Shown in pieces: positions 2,376 to 28,716 of a stretch of 34,190 bases of DNA. Each line of letters opens with the position of its first letter. Position 1 is the first letter of the stretch. The stretch is from Chloroflexota bacterium (GTDB lineage Bacteria > Chloroflexota > Limnocylindria > P2-11E). The notes under the pieces are model-generated. The model ran no database searches. It had not been told where the DNA came from and saw nothing but the letters and a program-made list of their open reading frames with translations. The translations under genes were made by a program, and so were the position numbers. The stretch covers positions 1-34,190 of the forward strand of contig SHYN01000006.1 of assembly GCA_009692785.1 (NCBI GenBank), given 5' to 3'.

Positions 2376-3302
2376 GTGCAGGCGGTAACGTCGGACGGCG
2401 GGGTCATCATCGATCCGGCGGCCCTGTCCGAGCGGCGCGGGAGCCCCTGGGACGCGGTGCGCCTCGCGCGAGATCAGCGCCGTCCGCATTCGATCGAGCT
2501 CATCGGCTCGGTCTTCGACCGGTTCCAGGAGCTCCACGGTGACCGGGGCTACCGCGATGATCCCGCGGTCGTCTGCGGCATCGGCGAGCTCGAAGGACGG
2601 GCGGTCGTCATCGTCGCCCAGCAGAAGGGCGCGTCGACCGACGAGAATATCGAACGGAACTTCGGCATGTCCTATCCGGAGGGCTACCGCAAGGCGATCC
2701 GCATGTATCGCCTTGCGGAGCGATTCCGCCTGCCGCTCATCACGCTCATCGACACGCCCGGCGCGTACCCGGGACCCGAGGCCGAGGAACGCGGGCAGGG
2801 GGAAGCGATCGCCAAGAGCATCCAGGTCATGAGCGTGTTGCGGACGCCGATCATCGCGGTGGTCATCGGCGAGGGGGGCTCCGGCGGGGCGCTCGCGCTC
2901 GGTGTCGGCGACGTCGTCCTCATGCTCGAGAACGCCGTCTACTCCGTCATCACGCCCGAGGGGTGCGCCGCGATCCTCTTTCGCAGCGCGGCGGAGGCCG
3001 AACGCGCCGCGATGGCGATGCGTCCTTCAGCGCCGGACCTCCTCGCGCTGGGTATCGTGGACGGGCTCGTCCCCGAGCCCGCGGGCGGGGCTCACACCGA
3101 CCACATCGTCATGAGCGCGAGCCTCAAGCGTGCGCTCGTCGCGCAGGTCGAGCGCCTCGACCGCGTGCCGCTCGCCGACCTCCTCTCGGCGCGGTACGAC
3201 CGCTTCCGCGCCATGGGCGTGTGGGTCGATCCCGGCGCCGGTGCTCTCGCGGAGCGGTCAAGGCCGTGGTGGCGCCGCATGCTCAATCGGGCGAGACTCT
3301 AG
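2376..3302 (+). CDS. accA: Acetyl-CoA carboxylase carboxyltransferase subunit alpha
   Basis: A 308-residue alpha subunit of carboxyltransferase, partner of AccD. It shows the early helical region (PWDAVRLARDQRRPHS), the GDRGYRDDPAVV segment, IDTPGAYPGPEAEERGQGEA and the oxyanion-loop region GEGGSGGALALGVGD, all typical of AccA. It starts with GTG immediately after the accD stop. The BCCP-like gene follows 3 nt after its stop. The C-terminal tail is arginine-rich (RPWWRRMLNRARL). Confidence 0.96.
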   Translation: MQAVTSDGGVIIDPAALSERRGSPWDAVRLARDQRRPHSIELIGSVFDRFQELHGDRGYRDDPAVVCGIGELEGRAVVIVAQQKGASTDENIERNFGMSYPEGYRKAIRMYRLAERFRLPLITLIDTPGAYPGPEAEERGQGEAIAKSIQVMSVLRTPIIAVVIGEGGSGGALALGVGDVVLMLENAVYSVITPEGCAAILFRSAAEAERAAMAMRPSAPDLLALGIVDGLVPEPAGGAHTDHIVMSASLKRALVAQVERLDRVPLADLLSARYDRFRAMGVWVDPGAGALAERSRPWWRRMLNRARL

Positions 3303-3305
3303 GTC

Positions 3306-3725
3306 GTGGCTGAGGCCGATCCCGTTCTCGCGCTCCTCGACGATCTCATCCGCCTCGCCCAGAGCTCGGTGGCGACCACGATCGAGGTCTCCTCCGACTC
3401 GTTCTCCCTTGCGGTCACCCGGGACGCCGTGAGCGAAGGTGTGACGTCCTCCTCCTCGTCGTCCGGTGTCCCCGCCGCCCGCCCCGGCATCGCCCCCGTG
3501 TCGGTCCAGCGGGTCCATGCGCCAGCGGTCGGCATCTTCAGCGCGATCCGCATCTGTGCTGTTGGCGACCGCGTCGCGCGCGGCGACGTCCTCGGCGCCG
3601 TACAGACGCTCGGACACATCGCGGAGATCGTCGCCCCTGCCGACGGCACCATCACCGAGGTCCTCGTCTCGGCCGGCGTGCCCGTCGAATACGGTCAGCC
3701 GCTCTTCGCGATCACCCTCGGCTGA
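3306..3725 (+). CDS. BCCP-like protein lacking the biotin-accepting lysine
   Basis: A 139-residue protein built like biotin carboxyl carrier protein: an N-terminal helix (VLALLDDLIRLAQSS), a Ser/Pro-rich linker (about residues 45-68) and a C-terminal biotinyl/lipoyl-type barrel (about 70-139). In normal BCCP the hairpin reads EAMK. Here, aligned with the canonical BCCP at 26776-27240, it reads QTLG (residues 100-103), with glycine at the lysine position. It therefore should not be biotinylated. It starts with GTG 3 nt after accA, is intact, and keeps the rest of the fold, so it looks maintained rather than decaying. It could be a structural part of the carboxylase or a regulator that competes with true BCCP (inference). 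Confidence 0.8.
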   Translation: MAEADPVLALLDDLIRLAQSSVATTIEVSSDSFSLAVTRDAVSEGVTSSSSSSGVPAARPGIAPVSVQRVHAPAVGIFSAIRICAVGDRVARGDVLGAVQTLGHIAEIVAPADGTITEVLVSAGVPVEYGQPLFAITLG

Positions 3726-3745: not shown

Positions 3746-4660
3746 GTGAGCAGCATCGCGTGGCTCTTTCCGGGGCAGGGTGCGCAGGTCGTTGGGATGG
3801 GGAAGGCGCTCGCCCTTGGGCACCCGGTCGCCGCGCGCACTTTTGAGGAGGCGAACGACGCACTCGGGTTCGATCTCCGCACGCTCTGCTTCGACGGTCC
3901 GCAGGAGACCCTCGATCGGACCGTCAACGCGCAGCCGGCGCTCCTGGCCACGTCGATCGCCGCACTTCGCGCGGTCACCGGTGAGCGGGCGTTCGAGCCG
4001 CTGGGCGCCGCGGGGCACTCGCTCGGCGAGTTCACCGCGCTCGTCGCGGCGGGCGCGCTGGACTTTGGCGCGGCGCTCCGTCTGGTGCGTCGCCGCGGCG
4101 AGCTCATGCAGGCCGCGGACGAGTCGGGCGGGATGGCGGCGGTGCTTGGGCTCGATGCCGCCGCGGTCGACCGCGCGCTCGCGGAGACGGGACTTGTCGT
4201 CGCCAACGACAACGCTCCGGGCCAGGTGGTCGTCAGCGGGCCGCTCGCGTCGTTCGCGGATGCGACCGCGCGGCTCAAGGCCGCGGGTGCGAAGCGGGTG
4301 ATCCCGTTGCGGGTCTCGGGCGCCTTTCACTCGCCGGCGATGCGCGCCGTCGCCCCCGACCTCGCCGCCGTTCTCGCCGCCACGACCTTCCACCCTCTGC
4401 ACGTACCGGTCGTGGCAAACGTCGACGCGGAGCTGCACACGGAAGCGTCCGATTTCCGGTCACTTCTCGAGCGCCAGGTCTGGTCGCCTGTACGATGGGC
4501 GTCCGTCATGCGGCGCCTCGCCGGGGAGGGGGCGACGCTCTTCGTCGAGTTCGGTGCTGGCACCGTGCTCACCGGTCTTGCGAAACGGATCCTCCCCGAG
4601 GCGCGCACGGCCAACGTGTCCGATCCGGCGACGCTCGAGGAGGCACGCAACGTTGTTTGA
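3746..4660 (+). CDS. fabD: Malonyl-CoA:ACP transacylase
   Basis: A 304-residue FabD, which transfers malonate from CoA to acyl carrier protein to supply fatty acid elongation. Motifs are the N-terminal FPGQGAQVVGMG, the nucleophile elbow GHSLGEF with Ser92, and GAFHSPAM with catalytic His195. Start is GTG at 3746, 20 nt after the BCCP-like gene. Its last 8 nt overlap accC. Length and motif spacing are normal. Confidence 0.95.
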   Translation: MSSIAWLFPGQGAQVVGMGKALALGHPVAARTFEEANDALGFDLRTLCFDGPQETLDRTVNAQPALLATSIAALRAVTGERAFEPLGAAGHSLGEFTALVAAGALDFGAALRLVRRRGELMQAADESGGMAAVLGLDAAAVDRALAETGLVVANDNAPGQVVVSGPLASFADATARLKAAGAKRVIPLRVSGAFHSPAMRAVAPDLAAVLAATTFHPLHVPVVANVDAELHTEASDFRSLLERQVWSPVRWASVMRRLAGEGATLFVEFGAGTVLTGLAKRILPEARTANVSDPATLEEARNVV

Positions 4661-6011
4661 TAAGGTCCTCATCGCGAATCGAGGCGAGATCGCCGTGCGC
4701 GTCATCCGCGCGTGTCGCGAGCTCGGGATCCAGACCGTCGTCGCCTACAGCGAGGCGGACGCGCACTCGCTGGCTGTCCACCTTGCCGACGAGGCGATCT
4801 GCATCGGTCCCGCCGCGGCGCGGGGCTCGTACCTCAACATCCCGGCGATCATTTCGGCCGCGCTCATTTCCGGCGCGCAGGCCGTCCATCCCGGCTACGG
4901 ATTCCTGTCCGAGAACGCCGACTTCGCCGAGGTCTGCAGGGAGCACGGACTCGTCTTCATCGGACCGCCGCCGGAGGTCCTCGAGCGGTTCGGCGACAAG
5001 GCGGCAACCCGCGCGGCAATGCGCGAGTTCGGCATCCCGGTGATCCCCGGTTCCGAGGGTCCGGTCCGCACCGCATCTGAGGCGCTGCGGATCGCCGAGG
5101 CCATCGGCTACCCGGTCATGCTGAAGGCGCGGTCCGGAGGCGGCGGGCGCGGCATGCGGAAGGCGACTGCGACCGCGGACCTTCAGCGCATGTGGGACAC
5201 CGCGCGCGCCGAGGCGAAGGCATCGTTCGGTGATGACGGGATCTACCTCGAGCGATGCCTCGAGGGTGTGCGGCACGTCGAGGCGCAGATCCTCGTCGAC
5301 GCGCAGGGCACCGGGCTGTGCCTCGGTGAGCGCGAGTGCTCGATCCAGCGTCGCCACCAGAAGATGGTCGAAGAGGCGCCCTCCGCATCCATCAGCGAGG
5401 ATCTGCGGCAGCGCATCGCGCGGATGGCCGTCGAGGCCGCGGTGCACTTTGGCTATCGCGGCGTGGGCACGTTCGAGTTCCTTGTGGATGGCAATGGCGA
5501 CCCCTACTTCATCGAGGTCAACGCCCGGATCCAGGTGGAGCACACGGTGACCGAGGCGGTCACCGGGGTCGACCTCGTGAAGGAGCAGCTCTGGCTGGCC
5601 GCCGGCCGGCCCCTGTCGTTCAGCGAGGAGCAGATCTGGGTCAAGGGCCATGCGATCGAGTGCCGGATCAACGCTGAGGACTCGACCCAGAATTTCCAGC
5701 CGTCCACGGGTGTGCTCACGACCTGGCAGCCGCCCGGTGGCCCGGGCATCCGGATTGATACGCACTGCTTTCCGGGGTACGAGGTGCCGCCCTACTACGA
5801 CTCGCTCCTCGCCAAGGTCATCGCCTGGGGCCGCGATCGCGCCGAGGCCGTCGCACGGATGCAGCGCGCGCTCGACGAATTCACGATCGTCGGGGTCACC
5901 ACGAACATTCCCTCCCACAAGAAGATCCTCGGAAGCGATCTCTTCATCGCGGGTCAGGTCACGACGCACCTCATCGACACGGTCGGCATCGACGCGCTCG
6001 TCCGCCAGTGA
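4653..6011 (+). CDS. accC: Biotin carboxylase subunit of acetyl-CoA carboxylase
   Basis: A 452-residue biotin carboxylase, which carboxylates biotin on BCCP with ATP and bicarbonate. It begins MFDKVLIANRGEIAVR and has the ATP-grasp glycine loop (SGGGGRGMRK), CSIQRRHQKMVEEAPS and the catalytic VNARIQVEHTVTEA segment, plus a C-terminal domain of normal length. I chose TTG at 4653: GAGGAGG lies about 9 nt upstream, and the translation then starts exactly where family members do. An upstream extension in the same frame overlaps fabD and has no family similarity. It overlaps fabD by 8 nt, suggesting coupled translation. Confidence 0.95.
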   Translation: MFDKVLIANRGEIAVRVIRACRELGIQTVVAYSEADAHSLAVHLADEAICIGPAAARGSYLNIPAIISAALISGAQAVHPGYGFLSENADFAEVCREHGLVFIGPPPEVLERFGDKAATRAAMREFGIPVIPGSEGPVRTASEALRIAEAIGYPVMLKARSGGGGRGMRKATATADLQRMWDTARAEAKASFGDDGIYLERCLEGVRHVEAQILVDAQGTGLCLGERECSIQRRHQKMVEEAPSASISEDLRQRIARMAVEAAVHFGYRGVGTFEFLVDGNGDPYFIEVNARIQVEHTVTEAVTGVDLVKEQLWLAAGRPLSFSEEQIWVKGHAIECRINAEDSTQNFQPSTGVLTTWQPPGGPGIRIDTHCFPGYEVPPYYDSLLAKVIAWGRDRAEAVARMQRALDEFTIVGVTTNIPSHKKILGSDLFIAGQVTTHLIDTVGIDALVRQ

Positions 6012-7366: not shown

Positions 7367-7406
7367 CCTCATGCTTCCAATGAAGTCGCGCACGGGAGGG
7401 GGTCCC

Positions 7407-8396
7407 ATGGCTGATGTGGGTAGTTCCGGGCAGTCGGGAACGACTGGCCAGGATCACGAGACGGCGGGCACAGAGGCGAAGCGCGGTTTCACCCGGCGAA
7501 GTTTCCTTGTAGGCGCGGGTGCCGGTGCGGCCACCGCGGGGGTCGTGCTCGGAGGCGCGATTGCCACCAACACGATCACGCTTCCGGGAGCGGCCACGGT
7601 GCCGACGACCGGCGGGTCCGGTCAGGGTTCGATCCCAGCGACGATGCGTCGCGTGACCCTCGACATCGACGCCACCAAGCACGAGGTGGTCGTGGATAAT
7701 CGCGAGACGCTCTGGGAGACGATGACTTACCAGCTCGGTCTCTCGAACTCGAACCTCGGCTGCGACCGCGCCCAGTGCGGCGCCTGCGCCGTGCTCGTCG
7801 ATGGCAAAGCCGTCAACAGCTGCTCCCTCCTGAGCAGTCGGTTGGGGAAGAACCAGGTCATTGGGACGGTCGCCGGACTTTCGACCGGCGTTGGCGTCGC
7901 CGCACTTCATCCGATCCAACGGTCCTTCTGGCTCAACGGTGGCTTCCAGTGTGGCATCTGCACCCGTGGGTTCATCATGTCGACGGTCGCTCTCCTCAAG
8001 ACGACCCCGAACCCGACCGACGACCAGATCGCCGAGGGGCTCTCGGGCAACATCTGCCGCTGCGGCGAGTACTCCAAGATCTTCACCTCGGTGAAGGTCG
8101 CCGCGGCCGAGATGCGTGGCGAGAAGGTCACGTACCTTGCGGCGCCTGTCCTGATGGGTGCAGTCCAGGTCGCGGCCCCCGTCGCAGCCACAGCCGTCTC
8201 CAAGGCATTCGAGTTCGCCGCCGCGCTCGCGACGATCGAGGACTTCGATCCGATCGCCGAGAAGCTGAAGGGGACGAGCGGGGTCCTCGATGTGGGCGGC
8301 AGTGAGCGAACGATCACCGTCAAGTGGGACCCAGCCAAATTCGACGAGACCAAGATCCGCGCTCTGCTTGCGGGTCTCGGTCACGCCGTGAAGTAG
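7407..8396 (+). CDS. Tat-exported [2Fe-2S] subunit of a molybdenum hydroxylase (PaoA-like)
   Basis: A 329-residue iron-sulfur subunit of the xanthine dehydrogenase family. A twin-arginine signal (TRRSFLVGAGAGAA, Arg30-31) is followed by a plant-type [2Fe-2S] domain (C119, C124, C127, C139) and the helical second [2Fe-2S] domain (C182, C185, C217, C219). Residues about 285-329 form an extra C-terminal segment (GVLDVGGSERTITVKWDP onward) that reads like a heavy-metal-associated ferredoxin-like fold without CxxC. The subunit passes electrons from the Mo site to FAD. E. coli PaoA also carries a Tat signal, and its partners are carried along with it. ATG 7407 was chosen for its ribosome site. Confidence 0.9.
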   Translation: MADVGSSGQSGTTGQDHETAGTEAKRGFTRRSFLVGAGAGAATAGVVLGGAIATNTITLPGAATVPTTGGSGQGSIPATMRRVTLDIDATKHEVVVDNRETLWETMTYQLGLSNSNLGCDRAQCGACAVLVDGKAVNSCSLLSSRLGKNQVIGTVAGLSTGVGVAALHPIQRSFWLNGGFQCGICTRGFIMSTVALLKTTPNPTDDQIAEGLSGNICRCGEYSKIFTSVKVAAAEMRGEKVTYLAAPVLMGAVQVAAPVAATAVSKAFEFAAALATIEDFDPIAEKLKGTSGVLDVGGSERTITVKWDPAKFDETKIRALLAGLGHAVK

Positions 8397-8409
8397 GAGG
8401 GTACAAACG

Positions 8410-10884
8410 ATGGCTCGCATCGAAGCGGTCCGCGTCGCCCAGGAGCCAGCTTACGCAGCCAGTCTGAGCGACGCCGATTGGAGCGCCTTGGGACAGGATC
8501 CCGACTGGCAGATGCTCGTCGCCGAACAGTCGGAGATGCTCTCCTCGGTCATCGCGGTCCATGGTCACAAGCTCCCCGGCTCCCGCGCGTCCGATGTGAC
8601 CGCCCCGAATGCGATCCCGGTGGCCGCCAAAGTGGTGGGCACTGCCGTCGCACGCATGCAGGGGCTCGGAACCGTCACCAGCCAGGGCCAGTTCACCGAA
8701 CACCTCGGGATGGCCGGAATGCTCTTCATGCGGACGCTCCGGAGCCGCTATCCCCACGCCAAGATCAAGAGCGTCGACACCTCCAAGGCCGAGAAGCTCC
8801 CGGGGGTTCGGAAGATCCTTCACCGGGGCAACCTGCCCAAGGAGTACGCCAACGTCTTCATCGGCGCCGCTCAGCCCACTCGCTTCCTTTTCAACGAGGA
8901 GGTCTTCGAGGTGGGGTCGCCGATCGCCGCCATCGCCGCGGACAACGAGCACATCGCCGATCAGGCGATGCGGCTTATCGACGTTCAGTACGAGGTGCTG
9001 CCGGCGTCGCTCGACATGCTGGAGGCGATGAAGAGCACGACCCCAAAGCAGTTCGAGACGAAGGAAGCCGGCACGATCATCGCCACGACGCCGCCTCTGG
9101 TCCGCGGCGACCCGAGCAACACGCGGGCCGACGCGACTGTCGATATGGTCACCCGGAGGGCGACCGAGCAGCACGCGCCGCTCGAACCCACTGCCTCGCT
9201 CTCGTATTGGGACGGCGACAAGCTCAACATGACCTACAACAGTTCCTACTCGCACTCTGTGCGGAACGGCCTCGCGCAGGCGCTCGGCATCCCGCAGAAC
9301 AAGGTTCGCGTGTTCCAGCCCGGCTACATCGGCTCGAACTATGGCTACCGCGGCGGCATCGACGTTTCGGAGGTCCACGCCGCTCTCCTCGGCAAGCTGA
9401 CTGGCAAGCCGATCAAGAACCTCTACACGCGCTACGAGGACCTCGTCACCCGCACCCACCGTCCCGAGTTCCGCAACGAGGTGAAGCTCGGCGTGAACAA
9501 GGACGGGTCGATCGTCTTCGGCAAGTTCAAGGTCATCGCGAACGTTGGGGCCCAGCGCGCGGGCGCCGCCAACGGCGCATGGTTCGGGCTGTACAACCTC
9601 TACAAGATTCCGAACCTACTGCTCGAAGCGGTCGACGTCATGACCAACAGCTACAAGTCCGGCCCCTACCGCTGCGTGAGTCACCCCAACGGCACCTTCG
9701 CCCTCGAAATGGCGATGGAGAAGGCCTCCTACGCGATCGGCATGGACCCGGTGGAGTTCCGCCTCAAGAACCTCAACGAGGTGGGGAACCCGGACACGAA
9801 GAAGCCCTTCAGCAATCCCGGCATCCGTGACTGCATCACCGCCGTGCGGGACGCCATCAACTGGAAGGCCACCTGGCACGCGCCCAAGGCCAAGCAGGTC
9901 CGGCCCGGCGTCTTTCACGGGGTGGCCGTTGCGGCGCACGCCTGCAGCCATGGCGGCGGCGGTAACACGGTCAGCGGGCAGGTGATCATCAACGGCGATG
10001 GCACCGTCCAGCTTGTCTCCGCCTCGAACGAGGTGGGCTCCGGACAGCGGACCGAGATGATGATGATTGCCGCCGAGGCGCTCGGCGTGCCTCTCAACCA
10101 GGTCACGATCACTCCGTATGTGGACACCGATCTCATGACCGATACCGGTGTCACCGCCGGGAGCCAGCAGACCAACACCGGTGGCCGCGCGATGTATGAG
10201 GCGGCGATCGACGCGAGGCAGCAGATCCTCAGTTGGGGCGTGAAGAAGCTCATTGACGATGCGTCAAAGAAGGGCCAGAAGCTTGCGCTGACCGTCGCCG
10301 ACCTTGACCTTCAGGATGGCCTCGTCTTCGAGAAGAGAGCGCCGGCGACCAAGATCAAGCTTGCCGAGATCATCGGGTTCAAGCTCACCTCGATCATCGG
10401 CAAGGCCGAGTACATCCAGGATCCCAAGTGGGAGCGGACCGGCTGGGCCGCGCACGCGGCCGAAGTCGAGGTGGACACGGTGACCGGCACGGTGAAGATC
10501 ATTAATTACATTGCCGCCCACGACCTCGGAAAAGCGATCAACCCGTTCATGGTCGAGCAGCAGATCGAAGGTGGTGTGGTCATGGCGGTCGGGGCCGTCT
10601 TCAGCGAGGAGATGCTCATCGACAAGACCACCGGGGTGCCGCTCAATCCCAATCTGCTCGACTACAAGCTGCCGAGCATCAAGGACGCGCCACGGGCGAA
10701 GGTGATCATCATCGAGAAGCCCAAGGAGTACGGCGTCTTCGGCGCGCACGGCATCGGCGAGCCGCCGATGGCCCTCGCCGCTCCGGTCATCGCGAGCGCG
10801 GTCTACAACGCCGTCGGCGTCTGGATGACCGAGATGCCACTTACCCGTGACAAGCTGCTCGCCGCGCTCAAGACGGCCGGGTGA
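8410..10884 (+). CDS. Molybdopterin-binding catalytic subunit of an aldehyde oxidase/xanthine dehydrogenase-family enzyme
   Basis: An 824-residue large subunit that binds the molybdenum-cytosine-dinucleotide-type cofactor and hydroxylates its substrate (aldehyde or N-heterocycle; not determinable here). The conserved domain starts near residue 88 (GTVTSQGQFTEHLGMAGMLF) after a family-atypical N-terminal extension. The catalytic glutamate is E784 in HGIGEPPMALAAP. At the active-site loop it reads GPYRCVSHPNG (C422), which is neither the AYxCSFR of form I CO dehydrogenase nor the AYRGAGR of form II, although it keeps a cysteine. It has no signal of its own, so it probably rides with the Tat subunit. 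AGGAGG precedes the ATG. Confidence 0.92.
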   Translation: MARIEAVRVAQEPAYAASLSDADWSALGQDPDWQMLVAEQSEMLSSVIAVHGHKLPGSRASDVTAPNAIPVAAKVVGTAVARMQGLGTVTSQGQFTEHLGMAGMLFMRTLRSRYPHAKIKSVDTSKAEKLPGVRKILHRGNLPKEYANVFIGAAQPTRFLFNEEVFEVGSPIAAIAADNEHIADQAMRLIDVQYEVLPASLDMLEAMKSTTPKQFETKEAGTIIATTPPLVRGDPSNTRADATVDMVTRRATEQHAPLEPTASLSYWDGDKLNMTYNSSYSHSVRNGLAQALGIPQNKVRVFQPGYIGSNYGYRGGIDVSEVHAALLGKLTGKPIKNLYTRYEDLVTRTHRPEFRNEVKLGVNKDGSIVFGKFKVIANVGAQRAGAANGAWFGLYNLYKIPNLLLEAVDVMTNSYKSGPYRCVSHPNGTFALEMAMEKASYAIGMDPVEFRLKNLNEVGNPDTKKPFSNPGIRDCITAVRDAINWKATWHAPKAKQVRPGVFHGVAVAAHACSHGGGGNTVSGQVIINGDGTVQLVSASNEVGSGQRTEMMMIAAEALGVPLNQVTITPYVDTDLMTDTGVTAGSQQTNTGGRAMYEAAIDARQQILSWGVKKLIDDASKKGQKLALTVADLDLQDGLVFEKRAPATKIKLAEIIGFKLTSIIGKAEYIQDPKWERTGWAAHAAEVEVDTVTGTVKIINYIAAHDLGKAINPFMVEQQIEGGVVMAVGAVFSEEMLIDKTTGVPLNPNLLDYKLPSIKDAPRAKVIIIEKPKEYGVFGAHGIGEPPMALAAPVIASAVYNAVGVWMTEMPLTRDKLLAALKTAG

Positions 10885-10900
10885 TGAGAGGGAGTACACG

Positions 10901-11896
10901 ATGACCATCGAGCTCTACGACGCCAACACGGTCAAAGAAGCGGTCGATCTGCTGAAGAAGCATGCCGACCGCTCGGCAAAAGTCGTCGCGGGCGGGAGCG
11001 ATCTCGTCGGCGGGATCATGAAGGACTTCGTGCAGGGCAAGGGCATGCCGAGGCCCGAGGTGCTCATCGACCTCACGACCATCAAGGACCTCGTCGGCAT
11101 CAAGGTCGCAGCCGACAACATCACGATCGGTGCGGCGACCACGGTGAGCGATGTCGTCGATTCGAAGGACATCCTCGCCAAGTTCCCGATCCTGCAGCAG
11201 TCGGCTGCGAGCGTCGCGTCGCCGCTCATCCGTAACTTTGGCACCGTGGGCGGCAACATCAATCAGCGCCCGCGTTGCTGGTTTCTCCGCGGTGAGGACT
11301 TCAACTGCTACAAGAAGGGCGGGGACTTCTGCTTCGCCGTCACGGGGGACAACCGTTACCACGCCATCATCGGTGGCGAACTCTGCTATATCGTCCACCC
11401 TTCCGACATGGCCACCGCGCTGCTGGCGCTCAATGCCACAGCCAAGATCAGTGGCGCGCAGGGTGACCGGACCGTCCCCTTCGATCAGTACTTCACCGGG
11501 CCGCGCGAGGACGTTCTCCGCGAGAACCAGCTGAAAGCTGGTGAGATCATGACCCACGTCGTGGTCCCCAACGCGGCCCCGGGAACCAAGATGGGCTGGA
11601 CCAAGCTGAAGGATCGGCAGGTCTATGACTTCGCGCTCATTTCCGTGGCGGTCGCTTTCACGGTCGAGAACGGCACCTGGAAGGATGGCAGGGTCACCCT
11701 GGGTGGCGTCGCGCCGGTGCCCTATCGCGCTCTGGTCGTGGAGAACGCCCTCAAGGGCAAGGACATCAAGGCCACGATCAAGGCCGCAGCGGCCCAGATC
11801 CGGACCGTCGCACGCCCGATGAGCCTGAACGCTTTCAAGGTGGATCTGGCCCAGGGTCTCATCGAGCGCACCATCCTCGAAGCCCTCGGCAGCTGA
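10901..11896 (+). CDS. FAD-binding subunit with a probable [4Fe-4S] site (PaoB-like)
   Basis: A 331-residue FAD subunit of the molybdenum hydroxylase. The FAD-binding motifs are VVAGGSDLVGG (about 28-38), TIGAATTVSD and SPLIRNFGTVGGNI (107-120). Directly after them is a cysteine set, C126, C136, C144 and C162 (RPRCWFLRGEDFNC, GGDFC, GGELC). In PaoB and 4-hydroxybenzoyl-CoA reductase this loop holds a [4Fe-4S] cluster. It likely receives electrons from the [2Fe-2S] subunit and passes them on to an acceptor. GAGGGAG precedes the ATG at 10901. It is the last gene of the operon, ahead of a strong hairpin. Confidence 0.92.
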   Translation: MTIELYDANTVKEAVDLLKKHADRSAKVVAGGSDLVGGIMKDFVQGKGMPRPEVLIDLTTIKDLVGIKVAADNITIGAATTVSDVVDSKDILAKFPILQQSAASVASPLIRNFGTVGGNINQRPRCWFLRGEDFNCYKKGGDFCFAVTGDNRYHAIIGGELCYIVHPSDMATALLALNATAKISGAQGDRTVPFDQYFTGPREDVLRENQLKAGEIMTHVVVPNAAPGTKMGWTKLKDRQVYDFALISVAVAFTVENGTWKDGRVTLGGVAPVPYRALVVENALKGKDIKATIKAAAAQIRTVARPMSLNAFKVDLAQGLIERTILEALGS

Positions 11897-17664: not shown

Positions 17665-17710
17665 GGATCTCACCTCACCAACGGCGACCGCAGCGACGTA
17701 GAGTTTGATC

Positions 17711-19060
17711 ATGCCGTCAAACAAGCACCCGTGCGAGATCGAACGGCTCCACGAGCTCGTCGATCGTGCCGCGGCACTCCTTCGCGTGGGTCGCCAAGGC
17801 GTGGTCTGCGTGAGCGCGTCACTCCGTGGCGCACCGGACCCGCTGTCCTGGGTCGCCGCTGCGCAGGACGAGGTGCGGGCGTACTGGAGCGTGCGTGATC
17901 ACACCATCGCCGGCGTCGGTGCGGCCGTCAGGATCTCCGCCTCGGGACCCGACCGGTTCGTGGATGCGGAACGCGCATGGCGTGAGATCGTCGCGCGGGC
18001 GACGACCGCCGGGTCGGCGAGCGCGCGACCCCTCGCGATCGGCGGCTTCTCGTTCGACCCGCGATCGCGCTGGCGCGGATTTCCAGCGCTTCGCTTCGTC
18101 GTTCCCCGCGTCACGCTCGAGTCACGCCGCGGCACCACGCTCGTCACCCTCACCATCGCTCGCGGTGCGGGCGCCGTGCGCGAACTCCGCGCCGCCCGCC
18201 GCGACCTCGCGAGGCTCGTCGACGCGGTGCCCCTGGAGAGCCGCCCGGCGCGTGTCATCGGCGGCCGCAGCGTTCCCATCGATTCGACGTGGCTGCGGGC
18301 GGTCGCGCGCACCGCGGCCGACGTGCGCGCGCGGCGGATCTCGAAGGTCGTGCTCGCGCGAGCCAGGCTGCTGGTCGCGGGAGCGCCGATCGATCCTGGA
18401 ACGGTCGTCGCTCGCCTACGCGATGCGAACCGCGGTGCCCGTGTGTTCTGGATCGGCACGCCATCGGGTAGTTTCGTCGGCGCGAGCCCGGAATGGCTCG
18501 CGCGGCTTCGGGGTCGCCGCGTCCGTACGGCGGCCCTCGCCGGCTCACTCGTGCCGGGCCTGCCCGGGGCGCTCCTCCTGGACAGCGTGAAGGATCGGAT
18601 CGAGCACGCCCTTGTGGTCAAGGACATCACCGGGCGGCTCCGATCGATGTGCGACCGAGTCGTGGCGGCGAGCCGCCCCGTCGTCGTGCCGATCGGCTAT
18701 ATCCAGCACCTCACCACGCCGATCGCGGGGCACCTTCGTGTGCGCACGGGGCTGTTCGGGGTCACGGCGCGGCTCCATCCGACAGCGGCGATCGCCGGGG
18801 CACCGCGGCAGAAGGCGCTTGCCGTGATCCGAAGGCGCGAGCCGCTCGCGCGCGGCTGGTACGGCGGCGGCGTAGGCTGGATGGACTCAAGTGGTGACGG
18901 TGACATCGCCGTCGCGATCCGCTCGGCGCTCCTGCGCGGCCGCCGAGCCCGGGTCTTTGCAGGCGCGGGCATCGTTGCTATGTCGCGGCAGGAAGCGGAG
19001 CTCTCGGAAACCGAGACCAAGCTCAAGCCGATGCTGCGAGCGCTTGGGGTGGGTGAGTGA
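17711..19060 (+). CDS. menF: Isochorismate synthase
   Basis: A 449-residue chorismate-utilising enzyme converting chorismate to isochorismate, the first step of menaquinone synthesis. Motifs are RISKVVLARA with the catalytic lysine, FVGASPEWL, the TAALAGS loop, SVKDRIEHALVV, IQHLTTPIAG, HPTAAIAGAP, RGWYGGGVGWM, FAGAGIVAMS and the metal-binding SETETKL. The segment between AGS and SVKDR looks several residues shorter than usual and AGT is AGS. The ATG at 17711 was chosen over a TTG at 17705. Assignment as MenF rather than a salicylate or anthranilate enzyme rests on the men genes that follow. It overlaps menD by 4 nt. Confidence 0.92.
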   Translation: MPSNKHPCEIERLHELVDRAAALLRVGRQGVVCVSASLRGAPDPLSWVAAAQDEVRAYWSVRDHTIAGVGAAVRISASGPDRFVDAERAWREIVARATTAGSASARPLAIGGFSFDPRSRWRGFPALRFVVPRVTLESRRGTTLVTLTIARGAGAVRELRAARRDLARLVDAVPLESRPARVIGGRSVPIDSTWLRAVARTAADVRARRISKVVLARARLLVAGAPIDPGTVVARLRDANRGARVFWIGTPSGSFVGASPEWLARLRGRRVRTAALAGSLVPGLPGALLLDSVKDRIEHALVVKDITGRLRSMCDRVVAASRPVVVPIGYIQHLTTPIAGHLRVRTGLFGVTARLHPTAAIAGAPRQKALAVIRRREPLARGWYGGGVGWMDSSGDGDIAVAIRSALLRGRRARVFAGAGIVAMSRQEAELSETETKLKPMLRALGVGE

Positions 19061-20775
19061 AGACCCATGAGGCGTGCGCGGCATTGGCCCGCGCGCTGGT
19101 CAGGTCAGGCGTCCGCGAAGCGTGCGTCTCGCCGGGTTCGCGCTCGACCCCGCTCGCCCTCGCCCTTGCCGAGGAGGCGGGCCTGCGTGTCCGTGTCCAC
19201 CTTGACGAGCGGTCCGCAGCATTCTTCGCACTGGGTGTCGCAAAGGCGTCACGGAGCCCGACGGCGCTCCTCTGCACTTCCGGCACGGCGGCCGCGGAGT
19301 ACCTGCCCGCGGTGCTCGAGGCCCACCTCGCGCACGTACCGCTGATCGTTCTGACGGCCGACCGTCCCGGGGAACTTCAGGACTGCGGTGCCGGGCAGAC
19401 CATCGACCAGAACGGGCTCTATGGCGCGGCGGTGCGCTGGTTCCACCACCTCGAAGGGCCAGCCGATCCGAGGCGGTTCGCGTGGGTCGGCGCGCGCGCC
19501 GTGGCATCGGCGCTGTCGTCGCCCCGCGGCCCCGTCCATGTCAACATCCCGCTCCGCGACCCGCTCGTACCGACCGCGCCGGTATCGTCTGCGCCGATCG
19601 CCATCTCCGTGCAGGTGGCGCGGCTCGGCGCCCCGCTGCAGGTTGCAATGGATGCGCTTGCGGGCGAGCTCGCGGTGATCGAGCGTGGGCTGATCGTCTG
19701 TGGTCCCCACGACGGCGACGACGCGTTCGGTGGCTCGCTCGCCCTACTTGCCGAGGCGCTCGGCTGGCCGGTGCTTGCCGATGGTGCCTCACAGTTGCGA
19801 ACGGGGTCCCACGGAGATGTGATCGCTACCCACGACGCGCTCCTCCGCGATCCCGTCTTCACCGCCGCGCATGTACCCGATACGGTGATCCGTTTTGGTG
19901 CGACCCCGATCTCCAAGCCGCTGAACGAGCTGCTTGCCCGACCGGATATCCGCCGCCAGGTCCTCGTCGATCCGGAGGCGCGTTGGAACGACCCGTGGCA
20001 TGGCGCGACGGACGTGCTGCTCGCCGATGACTCGGCGACCTGCGACGGCCTCGTCGCGGCGCTCGGTCCAGGGTCGGGGCACGACACGCGGTGGCGGCGA
20101 TCGTGGCGCGATGCCGACCGCAGGGCCTCCGAGGAGATCAGGGACAGTCTCGCGGCGACCGGTGAGCTCTTTGAAGGCAAGGTCTTCGCCGAGCTGGCCG
20201 ACCTGTTGCCGGACGGCGCGACGCTCTGCGTCAGCAACAGCATGCCGATGCGCGACCTTGACGCGTTCCTCCCTACGCGCCGCGGGCGGCTCCGGGTGCT
20301 CGTGAACCGCGGCGCCAACGGTATCGACGGCTTTCTGTCGAGCGGGCTGGGCGCAGCCGCCGTGAGCGAGGGGCCGGTGGTCATCGTGATCGGCGACCTC
20401 GCGCTCCAGCACGATCTCGGCGGCCTCGCCGCGGTCGCCCGTGAGGGCATCCGAGCGACCATCGTGCTCCTGAACAACGATGGCGGTGGCATCTTCTCCT
20501 TCCTGCCACAGGCGAACCTGCCGGAGGCGCGCTTCGAGCAGTTGTTCGGCACTCCTCAGGGATTGGTGTTCGCCGATGTCGCGCGTCTTTTCGGCTTGGC
20601 ACACCAGCGCCCCGAGACCTGGCCAGAGTTCCGTGCCGTCCTGCGCGAAGCGCTTGGGGCTCCGTTCACCTCGCTCGTCGAGATTCGCACCGAGCGGCGG
20701 CGCAATGTTGAGTTGCATCGGGACGTGTGGTCCAGGGTTGCGACCGCACTCAGGAGAGAAAGGATCGTGACATGA
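19057..20775 (+). CDS. menD: SEPHCHC synthase (thiamine-diphosphate enzyme)
   Basis: A 572-residue 2-succinyl-5-enolpyruvyl-6-hydroxy-3-cyclohexene-1-carboxylate synthase, joining isochorismate and 2-oxoglutarate. It has [34 protein letters not shown] with the catalytic glutamate, [34 protein letters not shown], and the C-terminal ThDP/Mg site [12 protein letters not shown] plus [18 protein letters not shown] start in a GTGA overlap with menF; it overlaps menB by 4 nt. Length is normal. Confidence 0.96.
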
Positions 20776-21590
20776 GCATTGCCTGGTGCGCGACAAGGGA
20801 GTACACCGATCTCCGCTACGAGGTAGCCGAAGGAATCGCAAAGATCACCATCGATCGGCCGGAGGTGCGCAACGCTTTCCGTCCGAAGACCGTCTTCGAG
20901 CTGATCGACGCGTTCGGTGCGGCCCGCGAGGATCCCACCGTCGGCGTCATCATCCTCACCGGTGCCGGGACCGCCGCATTTTGCTCCGGTGGCGATCAGA
21001 AGACTCGCGGCGTTGCCGGGTACCTTGGCGAAGACGGTGTCCCGCGCCTGAACATCCTCGACGTCCAGCGGCTCATCCGCACGCTGCCGAAGCCCGTCGT
21101 CGCGATGGTCGCGGGGTACGCGATCGGCGGTGGTCACGTGCTGCACGTCGTGTGCGACCTGACGATCGCCGCGGACAACGCGGTGTTCGGTCAGACCGGC
21201 CCTCGGGTCGGCAGCTTCGACGGCGGCTTTGGAGCCGGCTATCTTGCCCGCATCGTAGGACACAAGAAAGCGCGTGAGATCTGGTTCCTGTGCCGTCAGT
21301 ACGACGCCCGTCAGGCGCAGGAGATGGGTCTCGTCAATGCCGTCGTGCCGCTCGAGCAACTCGAGGAGGAAACCGTCAAATGGTGTCGCGAGATGCTCGC
21401 GCTCAGCCCTCTGGCGCTCCGCTGCCTCAAGGCTGCTTTCAACGCCGACACTGACGGCCTGGCGGGCGTGCAGGAGCTCGCCGGAAACGCGACCCTCCTC
21501 TACTACATGACGGCCGAAGCACAGGAGGGCCGCGACGCCTTCACCGCGAAACGTCCCGCCGATTTTTCGCGATTCCCCCGGCTTCCGTGA
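20772..21590 (+). CDS. menB: 1,4-dihydroxy-2-naphthoyl-CoA synthase
   Basis: A 272-residue crotonase-fold enzyme that cyclises o-succinylbenzoyl-CoA to DHNA-CoA. Diagnostic motifs are [46 protein letters not shown] and [19 protein letters not shown], the last being the MenB signature that separates it from other enoyl-CoA hydratases. The ATG overlaps the menD stop (ATGA). The order menD-menB-menC differs from the pathway order but all steps are here. Confidence 0.96.
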
Positions 21591-22627
21591 TCGCGGCGTT
21601 TCCCGGCGAGATCGTCGACGCGTTCCCGTACCGGCTGCCCTTCCGTTCGCCGTTCGCCACCTCAAGGGTCACCCACACGGTGCGAAATGGTCTCATCGTT
21701 CGCATTCGGACCTCCGATGGGGTCGGCGTCGGCGAGGCGTCTCCGCCTCCATCGCTGGGAGTGCGCGCCGTCCTGGATGCGATCGCTGCGCTCCGCGACG
21801 GCGGGGCGCTGCCGCCGTGGGTCCGCTTCGGTCTCGACACTGCGCGGCTGGACCTCCAGGGTCGTGCGACAGGTCGAACCATCGCCACGCTGCTCGATCC
21901 ACGGGCACGGAGCGTGGTCCGCGTCAACGCGACGATCGGCTCCACGGAGCCGCGGATCGTGGCCGAAGATGGGGCACGCGCCAGGGCCGCGGGATTCCTC
22001 ACGGTGAAGGTGAAGGTGGCCGTGGGGTCGCTCGCCGACGACGTGTGTCGCGTCACCGCCCTGCGCGAAGCCGTCGGCCCTTCGGTCGGGATACGCATCG
22101 ACGCGAATCAGGGTTGGACCGCGGACGAAGCGATCGCTGCGCTGCGACAACTGGTCGCGTTCGACATCGAATACGTCGAGCAACCGACGACCGCCGAGCC
22201 CGCGACGTTGGCGCGCGTCCGGGCGAACGTGGGCGTACGCATTGCGGTCGACGAGGCGGTCACGGGTCCCGATGCGGTGCGCGATCTCATCGCGGCGTGC
22301 GCGGCCGATATCTTCGTCATCAAGCCCGCACGCGTCGGCGGTTTCGCACCCGCACGGGAGATCGCCGCTCTGGCGGGGTCCGCCGGCCTGGCCGTGGTGA
22401 TCACGAGCACGATCGATACGTCCATCGGCGTGTGCGCCGCGCTTCACCTTGCCGCTTCGCTCGAGGTGTCGCCGCTCGCCTGTGGTCTCGCGACCGGCCC
22501 GCTGCTCAGCGGCGACCTGGTGAGGGCCCCCCTGGTCGCGCGTGGCGGCGTGATGGCGCTGCCGGAGGGTCCGGGCCTCGGTCTGTCGCTCGACGACGAC
22601 CTGCTCGGAAGATGGTCGGCGACGTGA
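21587..22627 (+). CDS. menC: o-Succinylbenzoate synthase
   Basis: A 346-residue enolase-superfamily dehydratase making o-succinylbenzoate. It shows the KVKV lysine motif ([12 protein letters not shown]), the metal ligands in [14 protein letters not shown] and AVDEAVTG, and the opposite-face lysine in [11 protein letters not shown]. These are the MR/OSBS-subgroup positions. Some enzymes of this group also racemise N-acyl amino acids, but the men context supports OSBS. Start GTG in a GTGA overlap with menB. Confidence 0.93.
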
Positions 22628-23991
22628 TCCCGTTCTCGCCGGCGGGTGGGTGGGACGAGGGGGCGGTCGCCTTCTTCTCGGAGGGCCGCGGCGTGACCTA
22701 CGCGGACCTTGCGGTGCGTGCCGAGCAGGTTGCCAGCCACCTCTACGCCGCGGGCGCGCGAGCCGGCGTGCCGGTCGCGACGCTTCTGGCGCCGGGGCAG
22801 GCGTTCGTGGAGGTGCTGCATGCAACGATGCGGATCGGGGCGGTCCTCATGCCGCTCGATGGCCGGCTCGCAGCGGCCGAGCTTTCGGCGAGGATCGATG
22901 CCGCTCGCTCCACCCTGCTCATTCACGATGACCGTCACGCGGATCTCGCGGGTCGCCTCGATCGGGACCACGTGAATGTCCGCGAGTTGCCGGTCGGGCG
23001 TCCTGCCCCTCGGGCTCCCGTCGGCTCGTTCGACGCGATCCACTCGATCTTCCATACCTCCGGCAGCACGGCTCGGCCAAAGATGGTGCCGCTGAGCGTC
23101 GGGAATCTCTACTGGGGCGCGCTCGCCTCCGCGGCGGTCATCGGAGTTCGGCGGGACGACCGTTGGCTCGCCACGCTCACGACCGCGCACGTCGGTGGTC
23201 TGTCGATCTACCTCCGCAGCGCGATCTACGGCACCTCCGTCGTCATCCACGACGGGTTCGACGCAGAACGAGCGAACCGTGCGATCGACAACGACTCCGT
23301 GACGATCGTGTCGCTCGTGGCAGCCACATTGGAGCGACTCCTTGAGGCGCGCGGCCGCCGCCCGTTCCCTCCGACGCTCCGTTGCGTGCTCGTTGGCGGT
23401 GGGCCGATCCCGGCCACTCTGCTCGACACCTGCGGTGCGCGAGGCGTTCCCGTGGCGCCCACCTATGGGCTGACCGAGGCGGCGTCGCAGGTCGCCACGG
23501 CGGCGCCCGGGTCACGGAGCATGCGAGTGCTGCCGGGCACCGAGGTCCGCCGCGGCGCGGACGGAGAGCTGCTCGTGCGGGGGCCAACGGTGAGTGCCAG
23601 CTGCCTGGGGGCGGACGGCTGGCTCCATACCGGCGACGCCGGACGCGTCGACGACGAAGGTACCGTGCATGTCGATGGGCGGATCGACGATCTCATCATC
23701 ACGGGCGGTGAGAATGTGCAGCCGGCGGAAGTCGAGGCGGCTCTCGCCTCTCACCCCTCGGTCGGCGAAGCGGTGGTCGCCGGCACGAGCGACGGCGCGA
23801 TGGGCAGCGCCGTCGTCGCCTGGGTCCGCCTTCGGCCCGGCCCGGCGGTGTCCGCCGCCGACCTGCGCGCGCATGTCCGTGCGCGCCTCGCGTCCTTCAA
23901 GGTGCCGCGTCGCGTGCATCTAGTCCACGAGCTGCCGACAACGCCGCTGGGCAAGATCGACAGGCGCGCGCTTCGGGAGCCCGGGCCGTAG
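22624..23991 (+). CDS. menE: o-Succinylbenzoate-CoA ligase
   Basis: A 455-residue acyl-adenylate-forming ligase that activates o-succinylbenzoate to its CoA ester. Motifs are the P-loop-like FHTSGSTARPKMVPLS, the aromatic YGLTEAASQVAT, HTGDAGRVDDEG, GRIDDLIITGGENVQP and the C-terminal catalytic lysine in PTTPLGKIDRRAL. I chose GTG at 22624 because it gives the same GTGA overlap as the other men junctions; ATG 22612 is an alternative adding four residues. Slightly compact for the family but complete. Confidence 0.93.
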   Translation: MIPFSPAGGWDEGAVAFFSEGRGVTYADLAVRAEQVASHLYAAGARAGVPVATLLAPGQAFVEVLHATMRIGAVLMPLDGRLAAAELSARIDAARSTLLIHDDRHADLAGRLDRDHVNVRELPVGRPAPRAPVGSFDAIHSIFHTSGSTARPKMVPLSVGNLYWGALASAAVIGVRRDDRWLATLTTAHVGGLSIYLRSAIYGTSVVIHDGFDAERANRAIDNDSVTIVSLVAATLERLLEARGRRPFPPTLRCVLVGGGPIPATLLDTCGARGVPVAPTYGLTEAASQVATAAPGSRSMRVLPGTEVRRGADGELLVRGPTVSASCLGADGWLHTGDAGRVDDEGTVHVDGRIDDLIITGGENVQPAEVEAALASHPSVGEAVVAGTSDGAMGSAVVAWVRLRPGPAVSAADLRAHVRARLASFKVPRRVHLVHELPTTPLGKIDRRALREPGP

Positions 23992-24011
23992 CCGCTCGGC
24001 CAGGTCTTGGT

Positions 24012-24875
24012 GTGTGGCTCCGAGCCGCACGCCTCCCCACGCTCACGGCGGCGATCACGCCGGTGCTTGTCGGCTCGGCTGTGCCCGCGGCCTCTGGCCG
24101 GTTCGATGCAGTGGTGTTCGCCGCGGCGCTTGGAGGGGCGCTGCTCATCCAGGTCGGAGCCAATTACGCGAATGACCTCTTCGACTTCCAGAAGGGCGCC
24201 GACGCCGCCGATCGGCTCGGGCCAACACGCGTGACCGCAACGGGTGCCGTCACCCAGCGGCAGATCGCGATCGCCACCGCCGTCGTCTTCACGCTCGCAG
24301 CCCTGTGTGGTGGACTTCTTCTCGTCAAGGGCGGCGTCATCGTGCTCGTGGTGGGACTGGCCTCGATCGTGGCGGCACTCACGTACGTCGGTGGGCCGTG
24401 GCCCTACGGCTACCACGGGCTTGGTGATCTCGCGTGCTTCGTCTTCTTTGGGGTCGTGCCGGTGGCGACGCTGGACCTTCTCCACGGCGGAGCCCTCACG
24501 CCCGCCTCGATCGGCGCGGCGCTCCCTGTCGGATGCCTCATCTCGGCGATCCTCGTCGTGAACAACCTCCGTGATCTTGAGCAGGATCGGAGGTCGGGAA
24601 AGCGCACGCTGGCTGTCATCCTCGGCGACGGCCCGACGCGTCTGGAGTGGGCCCTTCTCGTTGGCCTTGCCTATGCCATGCCGGCGGCCGGCGTGCTCGC
24701 GGGTCTATGGGGGGCGGGCGCACTCGTGGCCTGGCTCAGCGCGCCGCTCGCGATCCGACTGGCGATGCTCCTTCGCCGAGAGCGTGGACGGTCGCTGAAT
24801 GCTGTGCTGCGCGACACAGCGCGCCTCAACCTTCTCTTCAACGCGCTCTTCGCGTTGGGGCTCATCCTCCGCTAA
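24012..24875 (+). CDS. menA: 1,4-dihydroxy-2-naphthoate polyprenyltransferase
   Basis: A 287-residue UbiA-family membrane prenyltransferase that attaches the isoprenoid tail to DHNA. It has the first Asp-rich motif NYANDLFDFQKGAD, the second NNLRDLEQDRRSGKRTLAV, and about eight to nine hydrophobic helices. GTG start 20 nt after menE. It ends 3 nt before the stop of the convergent TetR gene. menG and a dedicated DHNA-CoA thioesterase are not visible in the window. Confidence 0.93.
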   Translation: MWLRAARLPTLTAAITPVLVGSAVPAASGRFDAVVFAAALGGALLIQVGANYANDLFDFQKGADAADRLGPTRVTATGAVTQRQIAIATAVVFTLAALCGGLLLVKGGVIVLVVGLASIVAALTYVGGPWPYGYHGLGDLACFVFFGVVPVATLDLLHGGALTPASIGAALPVGCLISAILVVNNLRDLEQDRRSGKRTLAVILGDGPTRLEWALLVGLAYAMPAAGVLAGLWGAGALVAWLSAPLAIRLAMLLRRERGRSLNAVLRDTARLNLLFNALFALGLILR

Positions 24876-25531: not shown

Positions 25532-26776
25532 ATGGAGAATGAACCGCGGCGACGAGTGGTCGTCACCGGCCTCGGGATGGTCACGCCGCTCGGGTCCTCC
25601 GTGGCGAAGACCTGGGAGGGTCTCACTGCGGGACGCAGTGGGATCGGACCCATCTCCCGCTTCGATCCAAAGGATCTCGAGACACGCATCGCCGGCGAGG
25701 TCCTCGATTTCGATCCGCTTGACTACCTCGATCGCAAGGAAGTGAAGCGGGCGGACCGGTTCGCACAGTTCGCCGTCGCCACCGCCGCCCAGGCGCTGGC
25801 GGACGCGAAGCTCGCGATCACGGCGGACCTCGCGCCACGGGTCGGCGTCATCGTGGGCTCGGGGATCGGCGGGATCGAGACGCTCGTCGAGAATATCCAC
25901 GCCCACGCCCGCGACCCGCGGCGGGTCTCGCCGTTCATGATCCCGATGATGATCATGGACATGGCGGCCGGCGAGATCGCGATGAAGTTCGGGCCAAAGG
26001 GGCCGAATTTCTCGACCGTGTCGGCCTGCGCGTCGAGTGGGCACGCGATCGGCAACGCCGCCGATATCATCCGTCGCGGTCAGGCCGACGTCATGATCGC
26101 CGGCGGCTCCGAGGCCGGCCTCATTCCCATCGCGATCGGGGCGTTCGCCGCAATGCATGCGCTCTCCCGACGCAACGACGAGCCGCAGAAGGCCTCGCGG
26201 CCCTTTGACCGGGATCGCGACGGCTTCGTCTTCAGCGAGGGCGGCGCGTGCCTCATCCTCGAGGAGGAGTCCTTCGCCCGGGCTCGCGGCGCGCGGATCC
26301 TCGGCGTCATCGCGGGGTACGGGCTCACTGCCGACGCGCATCACGTCACCGCGCCGCCGCCCCGCGCCGACGGCGCGGTCCGTGCGATGCGGCAGGCGCT
26401 CGCGGACGCGGGGGTGGCGCCCGACGCGATCGATTACGTGAACGCGCACGGCACATCCACGCCGGCCAACGACAGCGCCGAGACGACCGCGCTGCACACC
26501 GTGTTCGGCGAGCGCGTCACGCGCGTGCCGATCTCGTCCACAAAGTCGATGACTGGTCACATGCTCGGCGCCGCGGGAGCCGTCGAGGCGGCGATCTGCC
26601 TCCTTGCGATGCGCGACGGTGTTCTTCCGCCAACGATCAATCTGGACGCCCCTGATCCGACCTGCGACCTCGACTACATCCCGCACGTCGCGCGCAAGGG
26701 CACTGTCAACATCGCCCTCTCGAACTCGATGGGCTTTGGCGGCCACAACGTCGCGCTCGTGTTGAGCCGCGCCTAG
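25532..26776 (+). CDS. fabF: 3-oxoacyl-ACP synthase II
   Basis: A 414-residue condensing enzyme (KAS II) that elongates acyl-ACP with malonyl-ACP. It starts VVVTGLGMVTPLGSS and has the Cys-His-His catalytic set: Cys in STVSACASSGHAIG, His in YVNAHGTSTPAND, His in KSMTGHMLGAAGA. C-terminal NIALSNSMGFGGHNVALV is typical. No clear Shine-Dalgarno precedes the ATG. It overlaps accB by 1 nt. It lies 20 kb from the other fab genes. Confidence 0.96.
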   Translation: MENEPRRRVVVTGLGMVTPLGSSVAKTWEGLTAGRSGIGPISRFDPKDLETRIAGEVLDFDPLDYLDRKEVKRADRFAQFAVATAAQALADAKLAITADLAPRVGVIVGSGIGGIETLVENIHAHARDPRRVSPFMIPMMIMDMAAGEIAMKFGPKGPNFSTVSACASSGHAIGNAADIIRRGQADVMIAGGSEAGLIPIAIGAFAAMHALSRRNDEPQKASRPFDRDRDGFVFSEGGACLILEEESFARARGARILGVIAGYGLTADAHHVTAPPPRADGAVRAMRQALADAGVAPDAIDYVNAHGTSTPANDSAETTALHTVFGERVTRVPISSTKSMTGHMLGAAGAVEAAICLLAMRDGVLPPTINLDAPDPTCDLDYIPHVARKGTVNIALSNSMGFGGHNVALVLSRA

Positions 26777-27240
26777 TGGATCCCCGCAAGGTCCGCCCCG
26801 AGATGAACGCCCTCGTGACCGAGCTCCTCGAGCGTCTCGCCACGAGCGGCGTGAGCGCGCTCGAGGTCCGGCGAAACGGGCTGCGCGTGAAGGTGAGCAA
26901 GGACCCGCTGTTCGCTGCCCCGCCCGCGTCGACCCGGCCGTCCCGACCGATCGACGCTCCGCCGCAGGTCGCCGCACCGGAGGTGTCGGTGCCTCACGCC
27001 GGCGTCCAGATCACCGCGCCGCTGACCGGTGTCTTCTACCGGTCGCCGTCGCCTCAGGCCGGCCCATTCGTACAGGTGGGAAGCGTGGTGGGCAATGGCG
27101 ACGTCGTCGCGCTCATCGAGGCGATGAAGCTCTTCAATGAGATCCGCGCCGACAAGAGAGGCGTCGTGCGCAGCGTCCTCGTCGAGAGCGGCCAGCTCGT
27201 GAAGAAGCACCAGCCCCTCTTCGAGCTCGATCCGGTTTGA
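26776..27240 (+). CDS. accB: Biotin carboxyl carrier protein (canonical)
   Basis: A 154-residue BCCP: N-terminal helix (MNALVTELLERLATSGVSAL), a Pro/Ala linker (about 55-75) and a biotinyl domain with IEAMKLFNEI, the biotin-accepting lysine being K118. It carries carboxybiotin between AccC and AccAD. This is the only biotinylatable BCCP in the window; the BCCP-like gene inside the acc run lacks the lysine. GTG start overlaps the fabF stop by 1 nt. BirA at the window start is its expected modifier. Confidence 0.95.
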   Translation: MDPRKVRPEMNALVTELLERLATSGVSALEVRRNGLRVKVSKDPLFAAPPASTRPSRPIDAPPQVAAPEVSVPHAGVQITAPLTGVFYRSPSPQAGPFVQVGSVVGNGDVVALIEAMKLFNEIRADKRGVVRSVLVESGQLVKKHQPLFELDPV

Positions 27241-28709: not shown

Positions 28710-28716
28710 ACTCGGG

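Follow-up and report, generated by a model that had tools for sequence, protein, structure and literature searches.

A lysine-free relative of the biotin carboxyl carrier protein between accA and fabD in a Chloroflexota genome, with a separate lysine-bearing carrier

Two BCCP-like genes in one window

The window, by which we mean the whole 34,190-nucleotide stretch of DNA analysed here, opens with a gene run for fatty acid synthesis in which a biotin protein ligase gene, truncated at its 5′ end by the contig start (24-644; PF03099 and PF02237), and a DegV gene lie upstream of accD (carboxyltransferase beta, 1524-2375) and accA (carboxyltransferase alpha, 2376-3302), and fabD (3746-4660) is followed by the biotin carboxylase gene accC (4647-6011, start codon uncertain). 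The products of these four genes, which like the ligase gene are on the forward strand, score above the cut-offs of TIGR00515, TIGR00513, TIGR00128 and TIGR00514 respectively. Between accA and fabD lies a frame with a GTG start (3306-3725, forward strand) encoding 139 residues, with three bases between it and the stop codon of accA and 20 between it and fabD. A second BCCP gene is located far downstream (26776-27240, forward strand), its start coinciding with the end of fabF (25532-26776, forward strand; above the TIGR03150 cut-off), and its product carries a canonical IEAMK biotinylation motif at residues 114-118 (27115-27129) with the lysine at K118, just as the preliminary description of this DNA had placed it. 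We refer to the accA-linked protein as type A and to the fabF-linked carrier as type B. The carrier scores 112.1 bits against TIGR00531, under the cut-off of 115.2, and could be overlooked if genomes were annotated with this model only.

Elsewhere in the window, genes for small, large and medium subunits resembling those of CO dehydrogenase or xanthine oxidase occupy 7371-11896, the iron-sulphur subunit opening with a Tat-like signal (RRSFLVGAGAG); judged from translations only, a run at 17705-24875 resembles the menaquinone pathway (menF, D, B, C, E, A); and on the minus strand at 27411-29970 an Nramp transporter gene (PF01566) sits beside a frame like a soluble MgtE-N plus CBS protein lacking the membrane part.

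The type A protein is a genuine BCCP relative, as its score of 40.4 bits against the Pfam Biotin_lipoyl family indicates (cut-off 22.1), but it reaches only 46.6 bits against the BCCP model TIGR00531 (cut-off 115.2). The biotinyl hairpin IEAMK is replaced by VQTLG at residues 99-103 (3600-3614), with Gly103 at the lysine position, so that the glycine-for-lysine substitution pointed out earlier (as QTLG) is indeed present; the E-x-M-K lysine of AccB is likewise absent from all 25 orthologues described below. There is no lysine anywhere in the protein. A downstream motif, PVEYGQPL (residues 126-133, 3681-3704), is retained in type A and missing from the partner carriers. Residue 84 (3555-3557) is a cysteine in the window protein and a tryptophan in nearly all of its orthologues. 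A lipoyl or other lysine-linked carrier is ruled out by the lack of any lysine and the glycine at the hairpin tip; the protein scores 20.8 bits against GCV_H, under the cut-off of 22.2, and has no lipoyl-accepting lysine.

An AlphaFold2 model built with an alignment of relatives predicts an N-terminal helix at residues 6-20 (3321-3365, pLDDT about 80), which the carrier shares, a two-strand hairpin at residues 25-38 (3378-3419, pLDDT 75-77), a linker, and a barrel-sandwich domain at residues 66-138 (3501-3719, pLDDT 89-98); helix and hairpin taken together span pLDDT 75-82. Foldseek places the model close to 1bdo (E 1.7e-6), 4hr7 (the E. coli BC-BCCP complex) and 9a87 (Arabidopsis BCCP1). In its predicted fold the protein is therefore a barrel-sandwich biotinyl domain of the AccB kind, and the helix-linker-barrel plan proposed for it before is recovered, with the hairpin as an addition. 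The plan predicted for the type B carrier is the same, and the thumb of type A in this order is shorter than the carrier's by six alignment columns.

Conservation, selection and distribution

The genomes available for comparison are mostly metagenome assemblies. Within the order to which the window belongs, a type A orthologue is found in 25 of 29 genomes (E below 1e-27), and as to how many relatives keep a lysine-free copy beside accA, which the preliminary description had left to be counted, all 25 lie directly 3′ of accA and read [IV][QRK][ST]LG at the hairpin site. Leu102 and Gly103 are invariant, and V127, E128, Y129, G130, Q131 and L133 are each present in at least 24 of the 25. Of the four genomes without an orthologue, three give no match to accA and one has a contig that stops within accA; because no assembled accA flank exists in any of the four, we see no evidence that type A has been lost in the order. 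An IEAMK carrier is encoded in all 29 genomes.

Among 80 BCCP relatives from other bacteria the lysine is kept in 77. Rates of change were estimated by a simple counting method restricted to close, matched genome pairs, NG86 values across all pairs having been set aside since dS is unreliable at distance, and omega was 0.09-0.31 for the lysine-free gene versus 0.07-0.28 for the carrier. The proposal that the intact frame reflects selection for a non-carrier role, which lysine in relatives or a dN/dS near 1 would have contradicted, gains support from both results, since no orthologue has the lysine and the gene is constrained much as a true carrier is. Decay, assembly error and chance are ruled out by the low omega and by 25 intact orthologues that all share the hairpin pattern.

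We have also surveyed the phylum by a profile search of 400 genomes, in which we inspected 80 loci and read a portion of the 195 matches in the phylum. Among the loci read, lysine-free relatives occur in 17 families beyond the window's order. The residue at the lysine site in 82 sequences from outside the order is G in 33, N in 26, R in five, Q in two, D and H in one each, and K in the remaining 14; G, N and D are residues well suited to tight turns and would fit a hairpin retained for structure. In seven families the type A copy retains its lysine. Within the class the lysine-free gene has accA on one side and accC or fabD on the other, and in most other families with flanks read it follows efp, the usual place of accB in bacteria. 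The carrier of genomes with a lysine-free copy outside the order follows fabF in nearly every case read, adjoining the lysine-free gene instead in two genomes; a separate carrier was not found in three incomplete genomes that have a lysine-free copy. The lysine-free BCCP is thus a widespread type rather than a local oddity, a scope that the preliminary description underestimated.

Similar pairs are found in other phyla. In a sample of 30 Armatimonadota genomes, biased in that these were picked by similarity to a lysine-free protein, the type A lysine is lost (to G, T, D or R) in 14 copies and kept in 16, and the lysine-free copy adjoins accC in most of the 14 genomes. A type B carrier without VEYG (mostly IEAMKVF[SN]E) was identified in 28 of the 29 Armatimonadota genomes searched for a second copy. 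At the Armatimonadota loci L294-L323 and L355-L382 the accC-linked type is still lysine-bearing in about half (IESMK, IETIK or IESLK), and where it keeps the lysine both BCCP types may carry biotin. The bacterium of locus L093 has the same A and B pair. In Neobacillus kokaensis (L047:5761-8164) an accB without the lysine is followed by accC, an accB with the lysine and a gene resembling that of methylmalonyl-CoA mutase, a set that stands apart from its main accB-accC locus.

Two BCCP types and the role of the lysine-free one

Two types of BCCP emerge from these alignments, A keeping VEYGQPL and often having lost the lysine, and B keeping the lysine and lacking VEYG. The motif VE[YFH]G, retained in type A copies almost without exception, follows the lysine in none of 66 partnered carriers versus 12 of 12 solitary carriers (Fisher p 2e-14, which overstates the correlation, since most of the 66 carriers belong to a single clade and do not count as 66 independent events). 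Deep trees made without the two motifs are weakly resolved, the alignments being short with few columns, and one of them put the lysine-free proteins of class-mates among type B. Trees in which type A, type B or the phylum's lysine-free sequences were constrained to form a clade gave better scores (AU p 0.74, 0.77 and 0.56 respectively). The trees agree with, but do not prove, an old split into clades A and B, and they need several changes of lysine state; the division into types therefore seems older than the loss of the lysine.

Type A is a non-carrier protein under purifying selection, tied to the accD-accA-(fabD)-accC run and found with a separate lysine-bearing carrier. The nearest precedent for its role is the plant BADC, which lacks AMKL, assists assembly and binds BC as well as BCCP (PMC11926652), and which has been argued to be either a glue or an inhibitor (PMC11926652; PMC12873504). 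We think it probable that in type A heteromeric acetyl-CoA carboxylase has a dedicated subunit that does not serve as a carrier and acts in the way BADC does, probably by providing a scaffold to biotin carboxylase and the carrier. In such an enzyme type A would use its N-terminal module and barrel to fill places of the BCCP kind in the subcomplex of biotin carboxylase and BCCP, and would keep biotin carboxylase joined with the mobile carrier, so that only type B would shuttle carboxybiotin to AccA/AccD; the ratio of subunits could then also tune malonyl-CoA output. The lysine-free relatives that adjoin accA and accC in class-mates, and accC in Armatimonadota, support a subunit, and the efp rather than acc neighbours in many families and the weak resolution of the deep trees count against one.

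The preliminary description had offered two mechanisms, assembly of AccAD with AccC and competition with holo-BCCP, and while a non-carrier role gains support, sequence does not separate the two. It is conceivable, though rather unlikely, that type A acts mostly by competitive inhibition, driving holo-BCCP off biotin carboxylase or carboxyltransferase and thereby limiting malonyl-CoA, with the amount of the protein controlled by expression or by some signal, for example PII: it has the fold and operon in common with the enzyme, and the earliest description of plant BADC was as a negative regulator (PMC11926652, PMC12873504). A pure inhibitor would be expected to be lost in some lineages, however, yet the gene is present wherever the locus is assembled, and inhibition does not predict the change of motif in the carrier. 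We rank a scaffold above an inhibitor because every assembled locus in this order has the gene and the carrier shows the complementary change, and these, together with the BADC precedent, make the evidence lean towards a structural subunit.

Two further explanations place type A outside the working enzyme. The biotin ligase gene upstream in the window raises the idea that type A, while not itself part of the carboxylase, binds the ligase of its own gene run and either restricts or signals the biotinylation of the carrier, but its neighbours in other families are efp or accC, and we consider this improbable. Still harder to credit is an old accB copy decaying after its replacement by the fabF-linked carrier; such a relic would account for the lysine-free gene at efp, where accB usually lies, for the carrier being elsewhere, and for the several residues at the lysine site (G, N, R, Q, D, H), but frames are intact throughout, omega is low, residues across the barrel and hairpin tip are conserved and the place in the operon is preserved, all of which contradict it already.

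Beyond the subunit role itself lies a broader and more speculative possibility, that many bacteria have a two-BCCP carboxylase whose types arose before at least two phyla parted, type A with its VEYGQPL face being structural and type B biotin-bearing, that type A has lost its lysine more than once, and that plant BADC is a plastid heir of this arrangement or a parallel case. If so, BADC would be the heir or parallel of a bacterial division of labour and not a plant invention. Acetyl-CoA carboxylase is an antibiotic target and an engineering bottleneck, and if a bacterial protein of this kind were expressed in E. coli together with the AccA, AccC, AccD and carrier of its own genome, the question of inhibition or assembly would become directly testable.

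Comparison with known carboxylase subunits

No report of a lysine-free bacterial BCCP was found in the open papers searched, most subscription papers lying outside that scope, and no separate family model for such proteins turned up, so annotation may well label them as ordinary BCCPs. With AccB (E. coli BCCP, TIGR00531) type A shares the N-terminal helix and hairpin, linker, barrel and acc gene neighbourhood, but it lacks the biotinyl lysine that defines AccB, has a shortened thumb in this order, and falls well under the family cut-off. The AccE-type subunits of actinobacteria are similarly non-catalytic and help acyl-CoA carboxylase holoenzyme assembly, but AccE is small and binds the carboxyltransferase subunit (PMC7835884), whereas the window protein is a BCCP relative. 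An unusual BCCP arrangement is also seen in the carboxylase of Chloroflexus aurantiacus, which is probably of the same phylum and has a fused BC-BCCP in which a beta hairpin drives BC tetramer assembly; unlike the window protein, however, the additional BCCP domain there has retained EAMKM and is biotinylated (PMC11077971).

The closest likeness is to plant BADC (Arabidopsis BADC1-3), which are BCCP relatives without the biotinylation motif alongside true BCCPs of a heteromeric carboxylase, and which have been described as unique to the plant enzyme (PMC11926652). Type A is likewise a motif-less BCCP homologue, accompanied by a true BCCP, which every one of the 29 genomes of the order encodes, and by accD, accA and accC in the window. 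It differs in being bacterial, in being encoded in or near acc operons, and in having partner carriers without VEYGQPL. Judged by sequence and analogy, we therefore provisionally file type A as a protein that would work like BADC, and not as a BADC.
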